Positions 20,069-28,718 of a stretch of 28,718 bases of DNA are shown in pieces. A program made the translations under genes and the position numbers. The stretch covers positions 1 to 28,718 of IMG/VR virus record IMGVR_UViG_3300034073_001138; one strand, 5' to 3'. This DNA comes from a virus. Below the pieces are notes generated by a model that had not been told where the DNA came from, did no database searches, and saw only the letters and a list, made by a program, of their open reading frames with translations. The first letter of the stretch is position 1. Every line of letters starts with the position of its first letter.

Positions 20069-20524
20069 GTGCCACCGCAAGAACGACACGGCCACGCTGC
20101 CAAAGGTTATTCGCCAACCTATCGCTCATGGATGAGCATGAAGGCAAGATGTCTGAACCCCAGCTCAAAGCGCTGGCTTCACTACGGCGGCGCTGGCGTA
20201 AAAGTGTGTGAGTGTTGGATGCTGTTCTCTCATTTCTTGGCAGACATGGGCGATCGCCCTGCCGGCACGACCTTGGGGCGACTTGGCGACCAAGGAAATT
20301 ACGAGCCTGGCAACTGCCAATGGCAGACGACAAAAGAACAGGCGAAGACAGGCTCAAGCAATGGGCGAGCAAAACTGACCGAGGAGCAGGTAGTCTGCAT
20401 CCGCGCCCTTTACAAGGCAAAAGCGCGCAGGGGCTGCTCGGCAAAGAACATGGCAGCAGATCTTGGCGTTAGCTTCGGCACCATCGATCAGATCGTGCGT
20501 GGCGTGACTTGGAGCAAGGCCTGA
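20069..20524 (+). CDS. HNH-like / homing-type DNA-binding protein
   Basis: One hundred and fifty-one residues from a GTG. Residues 17-88 carry the pattern YRSWMSMKARCLNPSSKRW, HYGGAGVKVCECW and TLGRLGDQGNYEPGNCQW, found in free-standing phage proteins often labelled HNH endonuclease. Residues 101-149 (AKLTEEQVVCIRALY ... LGVSFGTIDQIVRGVTW) are a helix-turn-helix like the DNA-binding end of homing enzymes. Nuclease activity is not certain because no classic HNH triad is visible. It sits between the lysis gene and the dCTP deaminase gene and may be a mobile passenger. Confidence 0.65.
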   Translation: MPPQERHGHAAKGYSPTYRSWMSMKARCLNPSSKRWLHYGGAGVKVCECWMLFSHFLADMGDRPAGTTLGRLGDQGNYEPGNCQWQTTKEQAKTGSSNGRAKLTEEQVVCIRALYKAKARRGCSAKNMAADLGVSFGTIDQIVRGVTWSKA

Positions 20525-21042
20525 TGTCTCCTTTGCCTGACTACGAGATTCACGACCTGTGCAAGCGTCACGCCATGGTGGTGCCGTTTGATCCTGATCT
20601 GGTCAACCCCGCCAGCATCGATGTGCTGCTGGGCGATCGCATCATGATCGAGGTGGCCGAGACCCCGCAGCTGCAGATCCACGGCATCAGCGGCCACACC
20701 GCAGATGATCCGTACCTGCTGCAGCCGGGTGAGTTTTGCCTAGCGGAAACACGCGAGATCTTCAACCTGCCGGACTGCATCGCTGCACAGTTTGTGCTCA
20801 AGTCAAGCCGCGCACGCGAGGGCATCGAGCACCTGCTGGCCGGATTTTGTGATCCAGGGTGGCATGGCAGCCGGCTGACGCTAGAGCTGAGCAACGCACG
20901 CCGAATGCACCCGGTGGCAATCTGGCCCGGCATGAAGATCGGCCAGATGGTGTTCCACAAGATGGAAGGCATCCCCGGCCGCAGTTATGCGGTGACTGGC
21001 CGTTACAACGGCGACTTGGCAGTGACCGCTAGCAAGGGCTAA
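20524..21042 (+). CDS. dcd: dCTP deaminase, probably bifunctional DCD/DUT type
   Basis: One hundred and seventy-two residues. Homotrimeric enzymes of this fold turn dCTP into dUTP, and some also into dUMP, feeding dTTP synthesis and keeping uracil out of phage DNA. Motifs seen: NPASIDVLLGDRI (31-40), LQPGEFCLAETRE, the KSSRAREGIE loop (Ser94-Ser95-Arg96), AGFCDPGWHGSRLTLELSN with candidate catalytic Glu121, and WPGMKIGQMVF. The AGF-DPG segment is like bifunctional dCTP deaminase/dUTPases rather than the AHR-DPG of E. coli Dcd. The start overlaps the preceding stop by one base. It is the last gene before a strong terminator. Confidence 0.85.
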   Translation: MSPLPDYEIHDLCKRHAMVVPFDPDLVNPASIDVLLGDRIMIEVAETPQLQIHGISGHTADDPYLLQPGEFCLAETREIFNLPDCIAAQFVLKSSRAREGIEHLLAGFCDPGWHGSRLTLELSNARRMHPVAIWPGMKIGQMVFHKMEGIPGRSYAVTGRYNGDLAVTASKG

Positions 21043-21530: not shown

Positions 21531-21555
21531 TAACTATACCCCGCCAACGGGGCAC
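21531..21555 (-). promoter_or_regulatory. Shared 25-bp motif, copy A
   Basis: The + strand reads TAACTATACCCCGCC followed by AACGGGGCAC. Read on the - strand it is GTGCCCCGTTGGCGGGG then TATAGTTA, with TATAGT like a -10 box. It ends 22 nt before the ATG of the - strand gene at 21508 and matches copy B at 21 of 25 positions. It is interpreted as a promoter or operator, from its repeated position ahead of - strand genes. Confidence 0.55.
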
Positions 21556-21643
21556 ACTGCGCTGATCGGGCAGCCCGTTCACAATCCGTCACAGTGCCTG
21601 TCACTGTTCCCGTCGCTACCGTTGGCCAAGCGGCGGCCAGCCC

Positions 21644-24280: not shown

Positions 24281-24446
24281 GGCAGTTGGGGTCAGTGACG
24301 GTATCAGGGTTGAGCCATTCCAGCTCGTGCCACCACGGCAGCCAAGACTCGGCCGCAATGGCGACAGCTTCGGTAAACGTGTGCGCTGTGATCGACTCGA
24401 TCACATTGGCGCTGCGAATCTGGAAGTAGAAGCGGCGTTCAGTCAT
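24273..24446 (-). CDS. Small hypothetical protein
   Basis: Fifty-seven residues: MTERRFYFQIRSANVIESIT, AHTFTEAVAIAAESWLPWWH, ELEWLNPDT. A strand then a helix and a Trp-rich end. Its ribosome binding site (GGAG, 7 nt upstream) and ATG lie inside one copy of a 25-bp repeat and inside the end of the preceding gene. It may be a distant relative of its 78-residue neighbour. Function unknown. Confidence 0.55.
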   Translation of the reverse strand: MTERRFYFQIRSANVIESITAHTFTEAVAIAAESWLPWWHELEWLNPDTVTDPNCHV

Positions 24447-24744
24447 CGAGCTGCTCCAGTGCGCGGCGAATGATGTCGGCGGATTCTTTCTTGAGGTACC
24501 ACCTTTCAAGGCTGAGGTGTAGCTCGTCCAACGCCTGCTCCTTCAAGCTCGGCGGCTTGGGCTGGGCCAGCACGGCGCGGGCTTCCTCGGCTTGAGCATG
24601 GATCCTGGCAACATTGCCAGAAAGATCGTGCTTCTCTTGGAAGTAGCTAGAGGCGTGATTGCCCCAGCCTTCAACATCATCGGCGGCATCGTGCAGCGCA
24701 TCAGCCAGCCGCTGGATCAAGTCGCGTGGGTTTGCGTCAGTCAT
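24439..24744 (-). CDS. Helical protein with shared C-terminal module
   Basis: One hundred and one residues. N-terminal helical part (DLIQRLADALHDAADDVEGW), then a linker VLAQPKPPSLKEQALDEL and a final IIRRALEQLDD. The PPS-KEQAL...IRRALEQLDD end is nearly the same as that of the 162-residue protein upstream at 25377-25865, and the DNA there is a perfect 25-bp repeat. It overlaps its neighbours by eight bases on both sides (ATGACTGA). Confidence 0.6.
   Translation of the reverse strand: MTDANPRDLIQRLADALHDAADDVEGWGNHASSYFQEKHDLSGNVARIHAQAEEARAVLAQPKPPSLKEQALDELHLSLERWYLKKESADIIRRALEQLDD
24441..24465. repeat. 25-bp direct repeat, copy 1
   Basis: The + strand reads AGTCATCGAGCTGCT followed by CCAGTGCGCG, identical to 25379-25403. 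On the - strand it encodes the end of one gene (RALEQLDD) plus the GGAG site and ATG of the next. The same reading phase applies to both copies. Recombination between them would delete 938 bp and leave intact genes. Confidence 0.85.
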
Positions 24745-24967
24745 GGGCTTCAAGCTCGACGGCAATGGCCAAAAGTTCGGCGCGTATTGCTGCTGCGCTT
24801 ACATCACAGCAAGAGTCATACGGAAGATGTGGTACTGGAACCACCTGATCCGCAGCAGCTCGCAGGGCGGCGGCGGTGACCCACTGAACGTGACGACGCG
24901 GGGCGTAGTCCATTTCTCGGTATGCGGCATCTAGCACCGCCTGTGCAGCGGGGGAAAGTTTAGTCAT
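24737..24967 (-). CDS. LSPAA-family small protein, paralogue 2
   Basis: Seventy-six residues, MTKLSPAAQAVLDAAYREMD then TAAALRAAADQVVP and AELLAIAVELEAHD. It is a tandem paralogue of the next gene upstream (24964-25212): both share LSPAA.AVLDA, an ALR/VLR helix and (L/I)LAIA.ELE at the end. Such proteins are frequent in Synechococcus phages, of unknown function. ATGA overlap with the preceding gene and an 8-nt overlap with the following one. Confidence 0.65.
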   Translation of the reverse strand: MTKLSPAAQAVLDAAYREMDYAPRRHVQWVTAAALRAAADQVVPVPHLPYDSCCDVSAAAIRAELLAIAVELEAHD

Positions 24968-25212: not shown

Positions 25213-25384
25213 GGAGTCCTCCGTCAACAAGACCGTCGCACCACTCCTTGAACGGTGCTTCAATCTGAGCCATGGCTTTGTTGTCGATAGTCTCAGGCTT
25301 GCGGATTATGCTGATTGCCAAGCCCAAAGCATCGCCAAGGCGATTTTCCAGCGTGTCCAGTGGCACAAACTTGTAGTCAGTCAT
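25202..25384 (-). CDS. Small hypothetical protein
   Basis: Sixty residues: MTDYKFVPLDTLENRLGDAL, GLAISIIRKPETIDNKAMAQ, EAPFKEWCDGLVDGGLLDD. Acidic and mostly helical. Its ATG and GGAG site are inside repeat copy 2, the same context as the 57-residue gene at 24446, although the two proteins differ. It begins the stretch that the repeats flank. Confidence 0.55.
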   Translation of the reverse strand: MTDYKFVPLDTLENRLGDALGLAISIIRKPETIDNKAMAQIEAPFKEWCDGLVDGGLLDD

Positions 25385-25865
25385 CGAGCTGCTCCAGTGC
25401 GCGACGGATGGTGTCTGCACCAAGTTGAGTAGAGCTGTTATTGAGAATGTGAGCTAACGCCTCTAGCGCCTGCTCCTTCACGCTTGGCGGCGTGGGCTGC
25501 GCCAGGCGCTCTAAGAGATCAGCGATGCGATGGAAACGTTTAAAAGTCGCAGTAGCGGCCTTCTGTAAGGAGTAGTCAGCATTAGTTCTCAACCACGCCA
25601 CCAGCTCAGCCACCTCCCCATCAACGGGCGGCTCATGCTGGGCCAGAGCGGCGCGGAGTAGCTCAATCAGCAGCTCGGGATGCTCTAGTCCGTGCCAGAC
25701 AGAGATCCAGTCGATGCACGCCTCCAGCTCTTGGTCTGCGCCCCATTGGGCGGCGCGAGCAGCAAAAGCCGCAGTCCACGAAGACGCAGCTTCTCGGCCG
25801 GTCGTGGCGTCTACTTCCCACTGCCGCACCAGCTCCGGCGGTGGGGTTATGGGGTGCTCAGTCAT
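25377..25865 (-). CDS. Hypothetical protein with shared C-terminal module
   Basis: One hundred and sixty-two residues: MTEHPITPPPELVRQWEVDA at the start, a W-rich helical centre (CIDWISVWHGLEHPELLIEL, VAELVAWLRTNADY) and the tail PTPPSVKEQALEALAHI ... DTIRRALEQLDD that matches the 101-residue gene. The HPI-PPPELV start is common in cyanobacterial phage proteins of unknown role. The 8-nt ATGACTGA overlap joins it to both neighbours. Confidence 0.62.
   Translation of the reverse strand: MTEHPITPPPELVRQWEVDATTGREAASSWTAAFAARAAQWGADQELEACIDWISVWHGLEHPELLIELLRAALAQHEPPVDGEVAELVAWLRTNADYSLQKAATATFKRFHRIADLLERLAQPTPPSVKEQALEALAHILNNSSTQLGADTIRRALEQLDD
25379..25403. repeat. 25-bp direct repeat, copy 2
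   Basis: Perfect match to 24441-24465, 938 bp away in direct orientation. It covers the last eight or so codons of the 162-residue gene on the - strand and the ribosome binding site and ATG of the 60-residue gene. Confidence 0.85.
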
Positions 25866-25989
25866 GCCGCACCACCTGCTGCGTGCCGGAGTGGGTGGGC
25901 TGGTGGTGGGCACCGGACTCGATGCCGATCATGGCGAACACGCTTGCGGCAATCAGGCAGCAGATGGCGTTGTTGATGTGGTTGATCAT
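25858..25989 (-). CDS. 43-residue membrane peptide, His-rich tail
   Basis: A 43-codon frame: MINHINNAICCLIAASVFAM then IGIESGAHHQPTHSGTQQVV RHD. The first half is one membrane segment with a CC pair, the second a hydrophilic tail with three histidines. The start overlaps the previous stop by ATGA and the end overlaps the next start by eight bases, the operon's usual pattern, which argues it is translated. No family recognised. Confidence 0.5.
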   Translation of the reverse strand: MINHINNAICCLIAASVFAMIGIESGAHHQPTHSGTQQVVRHD

Positions 25990-26471: not shown

Positions 26472-26496
26472 TAAGTATGCCCCGCCCACGGGTCAC
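26472..26496 (-). promoter_or_regulatory. Shared 25-bp motif, copy B
   Basis: The + strand reads TAAGTATGCCCCGCC then CACGGGTCAC. On the - strand: GTGACCCGTGGGCGGGG followed by CATACTTA, with CATACT like a -10 box. It ends 34 nt before the ATG at 26437. It differs from copy A at only four of 25 positions. Confidence 0.55.
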
Positions 26497-26520
26497 CCTG
26501 CCAACCGCTGTGACAGTTCT

Positions 26521-26754
26521 TCACACGGCATTAGTGCCGACCGCCAGCTCAACAGGCAACCGCAGAACGGGCACGCTCTTATTCGTGTCCGGCGTGCGCG
26601 CCCAGCCGATCGCTACCAAGCTCACCGGCAGCTCGACCGTGTACCAGACATGACGGCAGTCCACGCACCTCCGCTGACGGGTCACCTTGTCAGGCTGCTT
26701 CCCGTTCGTTGCGATCGCTCTGATCTCACCGCTACCGCAGCGTGGGCACTCCAT
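26521..26754 (-). CDS. Zinc-ribbon protein, NrdR-type N-terminus
   Basis: Seventy-seven residues. MECPRCGSGEIRAI and RQRRCVDCRHVWYTVEL give a four-cysteine zinc ribbon (Cys3, Cys6, Cys30, Cys33) like the front of NrdR. The ATP-cone that completes NrdR is absent, so this is a stand-alone ribbon, perhaps DNA- or protein-binding. The ATG at 26754 has AGGA 5 nt upstream and is preferred over a longer start at 26781, which would overlap motif copy C. Confidence 0.65.
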   Translation of the reverse strand: MECPRCGSGEIRAIATNGKQPDKVTRQRRCVDCRHVWYTVELPVSLVAIGWARTPDTNKSVPVLRLPVELAVGTNAV

Positions 26755-26764
26755 AGGTATCCTG

Positions 26765-26789
26765 AACCTGTACCCCGCCACTATGGCAC
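26765..26789. promoter_or_regulatory. Shared 25-bp motif, copy C (divergent)
   Basis: The + strand reads AACCTGTACCCCGCC then ACTATGGCAC. It keeps the CCCCGCCA core and GGCAC end and agrees with copy A at about 18 of 25 positions. It lies between a leftward gene (start 26754) and a rightward gene (start 26809), so it may serve either or both. The - strand -10-like TACAGG is close to the ATG, so an operator role is as likely as a promoter role. Confidence 0.45.
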
Positions 26790-26808
26790 AGTGAACTTCG
26801 GTCAGTGG

Positions 26809-27015
26809 ATGGCGGTCGAGCTATCGCCAGAACAACAGTTCGAGATCGAAAAACAAGCCCGCACCCTGCTCAACAGCAAGGATGCGGGCGCTATGGCTGC
26901 TGCTCTACTCAAGCAAGCCTGCTACCAGCAACAGCTACTGCAGCAGGCCGTTCACGAGATCGCTCGTCTTGAGTGCGAGCTGATGGGCTTCCCTAGAACA
27001 GATCCGCCTCAGTGA
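26809..27015 (+). CDS. NblA-like small helical protein (tentative)
   Basis: Sixty-seven residues: MAVELSPEQQFEIEKQART then LLNSKDAGAMAAALLKQACY and QQQLLQQAVHEIARLE. The opening L-S-x-E-Q-Q-F followed by two helices and a Q-x-x-x-Q-x-L-L-x-Q stretch is the layout of NblA proteins, the roughly 60-residue adaptors that direct phycobilisome breakdown and are carried by some freshwater cyanophages. It is the only + strand gene inside the leftward region and overlaps the 3' end of the - strand gene at 26993 by 23 nt. Helical cyanobacterial proteins of other function can look similar. Confidence 0.5.
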   Translation: MAVELSPEQQFEIEKQARTLLNSKDAGAMAAALLKQACYQQQLLQQAVHEIARLECELMGFPRTDPPQ

Positions 27016-27319
27016 TCTCCGTCACCACGCCATCGGTCGCTTGCGCCAGGCTGGCAGCTGCGCTCTGAGCAGTCACAGGCGGCACCCAGTCGCGCGGCGG
27101 CTGGGCCACTGCGCTCACATACGCAGTGCCATTGCTGCTCTGCTTTTTCCAGCCGCTCACCGGCACCTGCACACTGCCGTACTGATCCACCGGCTGGCTC
27201 AGCACGAACGCACACAGTGCATCCAGCTCCTCCGGCTTGATGTTCATCCGGCCGCTGAAATCCACTTTTGAATCAGGCTTGGTGGACTTGAAGATCGCCA
27301 GGTTCAGCTTGAAGGTCAT
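26993..27319 (-). CDS. Putative ssDNA-binding protein of the recombination module
   Basis: One hundred and eight residues. The first 80 form a strand-rich domain (MTFKLNLAIFKSTKPDSKVD, QYGSVQVPVSGWKKQSSNGT, YVSAVAQPPRDW) with aromatic and basic residues. A disordered Ala/Gln linker follows and the end is ITEADLF, an acidic-hydrophobic tip like that of SSB proteins. Location one gene from RecT fits an ssDNA-binding role. This is inference; no family is recognised. It is joined to the HTH gene upstream by ATGA. Confidence 0.45.
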   Translation of the reverse strand: MTFKLNLAIFKSTKPDSKVDFSGRMNIKPEELDALCAFVLSQPVDQYGSVQVPVSGWKKQSSNGTAYVSAVAQPPRDWVPPVTAQSAAASLAQATDGVVTEITEADLF

Positions 27320-27546: not shown

Positions 27547-28204
27547 CAGTAGTTACCTCCTGCACGGGTTCGGGTTTCTTGGTGATCTTCTGGTTCAGAT
27601 CCTCGATGCTGGCCTTAGGCGCCGGCGCCTCGCTCACGGTCACCGGCTCGACATCGAGCACCTCCTCCTGCGTCTGGATGCCGACCAGCAGCTCGGGGAT
27701 ATACAGCCGGCCCCAGAACGCTGCGCTGCGGTAGCGGATCATCAGCTCCGGCATGGTCGCCCACTTGCTGCCGGCCTTGGTGGCCCAGCCTTCACGCTTG
27801 GCCATTGCCATGCTCACCTCAGGGCCGCGCAGCTCTTCGCCGGTGGCAAGCTCAGTTGCCACTGCAATGCAGGCCAGCGTGTCGCCCTTGCCGCTGATCT
27901 CATACCGCAGCGGGCTGAACCGGCCGCAACCATTGATCAGGGCAATGATGAACTGGCTCGACCAGCTGGGGCGGCCGTGAACGACATGGAGGTTCTGGAC
28001 AACCATCAGCGGGTCCAGGTTCATGCGGCGCGCGATGTTTAACGCCACCAGGCAGTTGGCATAGCCAGCCTGCCCCTGGAACTGCTGCGGGATCAGCGTG
28101 CTGCTGGCGAGAGCTTTGGCAAAGCGTTGAGCCTCGTCAAATGCAGCAGTGCTGGAGAAGACTCCTCCGTGCTGTTGTGTGGTCAGTGCTGTTGATTCGG
28201 TCAT
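27527..28204 (-). CDS. recT: RecT family ssDNA annealing protein
   Basis: Two hundred and twenty-five residues from ATG 28204 (MTESTALTTQQHGG). Residues 22-180 have the RecT pattern: FAKALASSTLIPQQFQGQAG, NCLVALNIARRMNLDPLMVV, NLHVVHGRPSWSSQFIIALI, NGCGRFSPLRYE, and the end AAFWGRLYIPELLVGIQTQE. It anneals complementary strands after exonuclease resection. The C-terminus is TTDDDEIF, like the acidic SSB tip. It lies next to an exonuclease fragment, the usual RecE/RecT-type pair, with an HNH gene between them. The start overlaps the HNH stop by ATGA. Confidence 0.88.
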   Translation of the reverse strand: MTESTALTTQQHGGVFSSTAAFDEAQRFAKALASSTLIPQQFQGQAGYANCLVALNIARRMNLDPLMVVQNLHVVHGRPSWSSQFIIALINGCGRFSPLRYEISGKGDTLACIAVATELATGEELRGPEVSMAMAKREGWATKAGSKWATMPELMIRYRSAAFWGRLYIPELLVGIQTQEEVLDVEPVTVSEAPAPKASIEDLNQKITKKPEPVQEVTTDDDEIF

Positions 28205-28518
28205 TGGTGTAACTCTTGATGGCAGGTTTGACATACAAGCATGAGGGCATTGAGGTGTTTCATCTCCGTCCCGCGAGGCGGATACCAAAGATGATGAACC
28301 TGCAAATGATCCGTGGCGGCGCACCTTTCGCACCGCTGCTTTGCCCTTTGATGAACAGCGGCGACCACCTTCTCCCAATACGAGGAACTTAAAAACCAGT
28401 CGTAATCTTCGCGGCGTTGCAGTTGCTCGTGTTCCAGTGATGAAACAAAGGCCCCAATGTCCTGCTCTGGATCCATCAGGAATGGCTGATCAGACAAAAC
28501 ATCCCAAGATGCTTTCAT
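28201..28518 (-). CDS. HNH endonuclease-like protein inside the recombination module
   Basis: One hundred and five residues from ATG 28518, two bases after the exonuclease stop; a longer frame runs back into that gene. CERC (Cys63, Cys66), HHLWYPPRGTE (His75-His76), HLNALMLVC (Asn90, Cys96) and CHQELH (Cys99, His100) make a zinc-stabilised HNH fold. The N-terminal 50 residues are helical and variable. Insertion between exonuclease and annealase genes suggests a function in recombination or a homing insertion. Confidence 0.75.
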   Translation of the reverse strand: MKASWDVLSDQPFLMDPEQDIGAFVSSLEHEQLQRREDYDWFLSSSYWEKVVAAVHQRAKQRCERCAATDHLQVHHLWYPPRGTEMKHLNALMLVCQTCHQELHQ

Positions 28519-28520
28519 GG

Positions 28521-28718
28521 TCAGAACGCCTCGATCTCGGTAGGTGTTGTGGGCATGGATCCATCCGGCCGCGGCCGCATCCATGCAGGCAGGCTGATCA
28601 TCTCGATCTGCTCGCTGTAACCGGGCCAGCTGTTGGCGGCCTTGCAGGTGGCGAGCACCTCTAAGTCACGCGCTGCAGTCTGCGCACCGAGCGCGATCAT
28701 CTCGGCATCAGCCGCATA
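28521..28718 (-). CDS. C-terminal part of a PD-(D/E)XK (RecE/DUF3799-like) exonuclease
   Basis: The last 65 residues of a gene whose start lies beyond the right edge. The end reads ATCKAANSWPGYSEQIEMIS LPAWMRPRP. The W-PGYS-(E/D)-(Q/E)I...I-LPAW pattern is typical of the C-termini of phage RecB-like exonucleases with a DUF3799-type domain. Its catalytic part is outside the window. Proximity to RecT supports the call. Confidence 0.65.
   Translation of the reverse strand, partial: YAADAEMIALGAQTAARDLEVLATCKAANSWPGYSEQIEMISLPAWMRPRPDGSMPTTPTEIEAF

Follow-up and report, generated by a model that had tools for sequence, protein, structure and literature searches.

A siphophage gene that is near-core in its lineage fairly probably encodes a small helical hairpin of a picocyanobacterial NblA-like family and acts as an NblA-type Clp adaptor; we hold this reading with moderate confidence. 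The gene lies in a 28.7 kb stretch of viral DNA, here called the window (IMG/VR virus record IMGVR_UViG_3300034073_001138, positions 1 to 28,718). Phage NblA is already known from freshwater and marine phages, and viral NblA proteins were reportedly treated by Nadel in 2019 and again in 2025 (Nature 648:434). Viral NblA is an active topic because it shows that viruses curtail the light capture of their hosts in the course of infection. NblA itself is a small dimeric adaptor whose C-terminal part binds phycobilisomes and which also binds ClpC of the Clp protease (PMC7760959). Expression of phage nblA genes takes place during infection, and cyanobacteria made to express them lose phycobilin (summarised in PMC9602691).

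Gene boundaries and selection

A preliminary description of this DNA reported a protein of 67 residues starting at an inner ATG, but that ORF encodes 68. Viral contigs were scanned for relatives; 178 came to light, and 80 of them were retained. In these 80, the 18 bases located 5' of the inner ATG are kept in frame, with changes mostly at third positions. The six upstream codons read M/V-N-F-G-Q/E-W (MNFG[E/Q]W) and change synonymously, the start codon being GTG in the window and ATG in most relatives. This in-frame conservation points to the GTG as the probable natural start, giving a protein of 74 residues (Table 1). The LSxEQQF motif that had been noticed near the start is indeed present, as LSPEQQF at residues 11-17 of this longer form.

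The codon-position information among the relatives is 1.80, 1.93, and 1.19 bits at positions 1, 2, and 3. The median dN/dS against the relatives is 0.052, and of the six frames only the NblA-like one is stop-free in 80/80 relatives. Judging from these three measures, the ORF is a real gene under strong purifying selection. It is short and opposes the strand of its surroundings, as a chance ORF might; however, the low dN/dS, the sole open frame, and its presence in 67/80 recT-sampled loci make a chance origin hardly credible.

Table 1. Features of the NblA-like locus (positions in the window)
Feature	Position	Strand	Length	Basis or remark
NblA-like gene, probable start GTG 26791	26791..27015	+	74 aa	Upstream in-frame conservation, dN/dS
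ORF of the preliminary description, inner ATG	26809..27015	+	68 aa	Sequence MAVELSPEQQFEIEKQARTLLNSKDAGAMAAALLKQACYQQQLLQQAVHEIARLECELMGFPRTDPPQ
Helix 1 (predicted), residues 13-27	26827..26871	+		AlphaFold2; begins just after LS of LSPEQQF
Helix 2 (predicted), residues 32-65	26884..26985	+		AlphaFold2
Motif copy C, upstream element, TGTACMCCNCCACTATGGCAC in relatives	26768..26793	+		Repeat family D3; near-invariant in relatives
Small zinc-ribbon protein (MECPRCGSG...), divergent neighbour	26521..26754	-		Pfam zinc-ribbon up to 5e-6, just under cut-off
Convergent neighbour, no assigned function	26993..27319	-		ORF list; 3' end overlaps the 3' end of the NblA-like gene by 23 bases

Locus, lineage and isolates

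The window capsid is 63-64% identical to the capsids of S-CBS3, S-LBS1, and S-CBS1, which are siphophages of estuarine and freshwater Synechococcus. Structural genes occupy the plus strand up to approximately 20 kb, and the early genes are mostly on the minus strand. The order of the minus-strand block is exo, recT, an HTH gene, the convergent neighbour, the NblA-like gene on the plus strand, and the zinc-ribbon gene. As had been pointed out earlier, the NblA-like gene stands alone on the plus strand among minus-strand genes in the ORF list, and this arrangement is repeated in the relatives' loci listed. The zinc-ribbon gene is found in 79 and the convergent neighbour in 75 of the relatives' 80 loci.

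Among the loci listed, identity to the window is 82-100% for the NblA-like gene, 57 to 99% for recT, and 45 to 100% for the kinase-like gene, a comparison biased in favour of the NblA-like gene, by which the loci were chosen. Sampling was also read in reverse: the gene is present in 67/80 loci collected through recT and in 77/80 collected through the zinc-ribbon protein. The three zinc-ribbon loci that lack it all end at a contig edge. Several of the 13 recT loci that lack it do so as well, and the others have room yet no gene. The reverse sampling indicates that, as far as these loci represent it, the NblA-like gene is near-core in the S-CBS1/S-LBS1-like siphophage lineage of picocyanobacteria (Synechococcus/Cyanobium) and is no sporadic passenger.

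Two isolates of the same lineage carry homologues, namely S-CBS1 gp26 (ADP06631.1, E 5.5e-11) and S-LBS1 A32 (ATS93204.1, E 0.033); none was detected in S-CBS3. S-CBS1 gp26 retains the xxWM and EIEKxAR features of the window clade, whereas S-LBS1 A32 is a distant copy. Both genes adjoin a sigma factor gene, a genome position unlike that in the window, and both are annotated as hypothetical. A tblastn search with the NblA-like protein in the phage collection gave no match, the glutamine-rich part possibly being masked, and a scan of genome contigs with the phage alignment confirmed nothing. No prophage was found in 251 Cyanobiaceae genomes searched with the tail protein of the window.

Two other genes of the region were noted. 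A dCTP deaminase-like gene (20509-21042, plus strand; phrog_1663, 1e-48) lies at the edge of the early region and is present in 52/80 relatives' loci. An HNH endonuclease gene (28201-28584, minus strand), situated between recT and the exonuclease gene, occurs in only 2/80 and is probably a recent insertion.

Relationship to a picocyanobacterial protein family

When the phage profile was run against 14 and then 201 picocyanobacterial genomes, matches were mostly at E 0.001-0.05, and most fell on one family of small picocyanobacterial proteins. This family, termed C, is described by the consensus LSVGQQFEIERFSRAIDATADxxxLRxLAKQLLQAWHTQKAATxWV. Conversely, when 15,040 viral ORFs were ranked by a C profile built from cellular genes only, the window protein and its 80 relatives took the top 81 places, at E 1.3e-6 to 1.4e-4, with the next ORF at 0.9; these 81 amount to about one observation because they are close homologues of one another. 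Direct comparison of the phage and C profiles gave a match probability of 96% with 18 phage sequences and 95.8% with 27. With 33 diverse phage sequences it gave 96.4% over 42 columns, and none of 150 column shuffles reached this score. A wider C set gave 96.1% over 49 columns, the match covering both helices.

Like the phage protein, members of family C have 60-70 residues, an LSxxQQFEIE motif opening helix 1, a similar KQLL/LLKQ stretch, and exactly the same distance between the LS motif and the Asp with which helix 2 begins. The phage protein differs in its N-terminal MNFGEWM, in a turn approximately three residues shorter, and in a longer helix 2, where LQQAVNEIARLE replaces the WHTQKAATxWV stretch of C. 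Given the shuffled comparisons, homology of the phage protein to family C is firm at the level of profiles.

These comparisons also bear on the idea that the gene encodes an unrelated small helical phage protein, for example an early-transcription regulator at a divergent promoter, with a convergent LSxEQQF motif. The protein has no curated family match and no PDB fold match, and its gene adjoins a conserved shared promoter region and the zinc-ribbon gene, all of which would suit such a regulator. The absence of any shuffle reaching the phage-C score (0/150) and the first rank of the NblA-like gene among 15,040 ORFs in the reciprocal search make it improbable. Extra phage-profile matches at two loci had been considered as paralogues and were rejected as low-complexity reading frames.

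Across 201 sampled Cyanobiaceae genomes, the presence of family C was set against the number of PF00502 (phycobiliprotein) genes, the genomes being counted by hand from tables. C is present at E<=1e-3 in 117/119 genomes that have at least three PF00502 genes and in 25/82 that have no more than two, all of the latter being weak matches. Since the low-PF00502 genomes are probably Prochlorococcus, the association of C with phycobilisomes is confounded by shared ancestry. Among 194 genomes sampled across the phylum, C was found in 8 genomes and above-cut-off PF04485, the Pfam NblA family, in 75, with an overlap of 0. Of the genomes having a full-strength C gene, one shows a PF04485 match below the cut-off (E 3.9e-4), and the matching gene is a C paralogue. 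The C and canonical NblA profiles matched with a probability of 91.5-92%, with 0/200 and 0/150 shuffles as high, over 26 columns of helix 1 only; homology between these two families is thus probable. In view of the non-overlap and the distribution among phycobilisome genomes, family C appears to be the NblA counterpart of picocyanobacteria, and we infer that it may be the picocyanobacterial nblA.

Family C is multi-copy, with up to seven copies per genome. In the three genomes concerned, some copies lie approximately 1-3 kb apart on opposite strands. At three loci read by eye, the cellular C gene is near a gene for a putative metal ABC transporter binding protein.

Relationship to canonical and marine viral NblA

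The resemblance to NblA proposed in the preliminary description holds beyond chance by way of family C, but its direct form is weak and unstable. The profile search suggested there gave no PF04485 match at E<=10, and hence none above 25 bits, nor was a family match found in NCBIfam, PHROGs, or Pfam as a whole. The PF04485 miss is weak evidence against a relationship because PF04485 also misses the published S-SCSM1 NblA. The phage profile matched that of canonical NblA with a probability of 40%, then 73% with 27 phage sequences, then 18% with 33 diverse sequences, when 2/150 column shuffles scored as high. The fall to 18% came when divergent members that carry IPPEKLF in place of LSPEQQF were added. 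Direct membership in canonical NblA was dropped upon this fall from 73% to 18%, and direct homology of the phage protein to canonical NblA is not established. A profile of canonical NblA only still has 68 window-clade ORFs in its first 68 places among 15,040 viral ORFs, at E 0.19-8.

Canonical NblA (PF04485; PDB 1OJH, 3CS5, 2Q8V) shares with the phage protein its size, an (L)SxEQQF motif opening helix 1, and the two-helix layout. In the window protein, this motif takes the form LSPEQQF. In contrast, helix 2 and the binding residues of NblA are not recognisable in the phage protein. For the C-terminal phycobilisome-binding residues, which we take to be Leu51 and Lys53 of Anabaena NblA, the phage alignments offer no clear Leu/Lys counterpart, the equivalence of positions being uncertain. 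"NblA-like" is a fair description of the phage protein.

The S-SCSM1 and S-TIM5 proteins have been named viral NblA (PMC9602691). Searches with the C profile retrieve S-SCSM1 NblA as well, together with proteins from S-TIM5, PSS2, and S-CRM01. S-SCSM1 NblA (QFG06501.1) and the S-TIM5 protein score 26.5 and 22.6 bits, against approximately 27 bits for the window protein. They are T4-like myovirus proteins without the EQQF motif, and a direct profile match between them and the window clade is not significant. Recovery of both groups by the C profile places them in the same superfamily.

Predicted structure

An AlphaFold2 model from 27 sequences consists of two helices with a mean pLDDT of 83, and the helical protein that had been expected from the sequence is thus predicted to be a two-helix hairpin. 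Known NblA proteins have helix 1 starting from the EQQF motif, a turn, and then a longer helix 2, with which the predicted layout agrees. Foldseek against the PDB returned no NblA among the fold matches, very short hairpins being hard for this program. Against viral models, its best matches were two viral proteins (D6PIK3, E 4.8e-3, TM 0.69-0.71). When PDB sequences were searched with the phage profile, the sole match was a beta-lactamase helix at E about 0.3, judged spurious.

Proposed function

In the mechanism that we favour, the NblA-like gene would be transcribed from its own promoter and would yield an adaptor of small size, probably a dimer, with a phycobilisome protein as its binding partner. 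The adaptor would deliver this protein to the host ClpC-ClpP protease, which would take the antenna apart, freeing amino acids and limiting light input during infection. The distant relationship to NblA suggests that the siphophages probably dim host light harvesting through this gene. The effect of the protein on host light harvesting put forward in the preliminary description is plausible.

The unmatched helix 2 leaves room for another client. A member of the NblA-like superfamily could redirect or block the degradation of another host protein, either as a Clp adaptor or as a decoy partner of a host C protein. Besides the divergence of helix 2 from NblA, the canonical match fades with more sequences, the presence of up to seven C copies per genome suggests several roles, and genomes poor in phycobiliprotein genes contain weak C matches too. 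However, strong C matches track phycobilisome-bearing genomes, and the C profile picks up viral proteins that have been called NblA; we regard another client as rather unlikely, less so than an unrelated protein.

Adaptor activity on phycobilisomes would fit a wider picture, which we offer tentatively as somewhat short of an even chance. Picocyanobacteria would have their own multi-copy NblA family, C, of which the siphophage lineage keeps a highly conserved, near-core copy; phycobilisome dismantling would be a trait that these siphophages generally share, and C the missing bleaching factor of picocyanobacteria. Canonical NblA is hardly found in picocyanobacteria. Family C could explain antenna degradation in those reported without nblA, such as Synechococcus CS-601 (PMC6337551).

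The clade in S-CBS1/S-LBS1-like siphophages appears so far unannotated because it is hypothetical in both isolates, the S-LBS1 paper leaves nblA unmentioned in its main text, and the clade is absent from the libraries searched. According to a figure legend in PMC9602691, the published trees include some cyanosiphovirus sequences and so may overlap with this clade. To viral NblA, the clade adds a near-core, apparently unannotated group in picocyanobacterial siphophages. Since the cultured phages S-CBS1 and S-LBS1 carry it, the effect on phycobilisomes is directly testable there.

Upstream element and repeated DNA

The NblA-like gene shares its gap with motif copy C, as first described. This element extends into the corrected start codon and lies in the gap toward the divergent zinc-ribbon gene, which starts at 26754. 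Counted from the inner ATG, non-coding positions -40 to -20 are nearly invariant in the relatives. A scan of the gap upstream of the NblA-like gene found no sigma-70 match. Motif copy C is one of three related intergenic elements in one orientation that make up repeat family D3, the others being at 21534-21559 and 26475-26500. At matching places in relatives, the other D3 copies vary in a paired manner toward the palindrome TGCMCCGNNNNCGGKGCA. The D3 elements can reasonably be read as a phage operator or promoter used in common, and motif copy C itself is likely to be a promoter or operator.

Repeated DNA of another kind links two minus-strand genes, at 24439-24765 and 25377-25913, which have families D2 and D5 in common at 82-90% identity. 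Both genes match phrog_32006; the pair represents a partial duplication.
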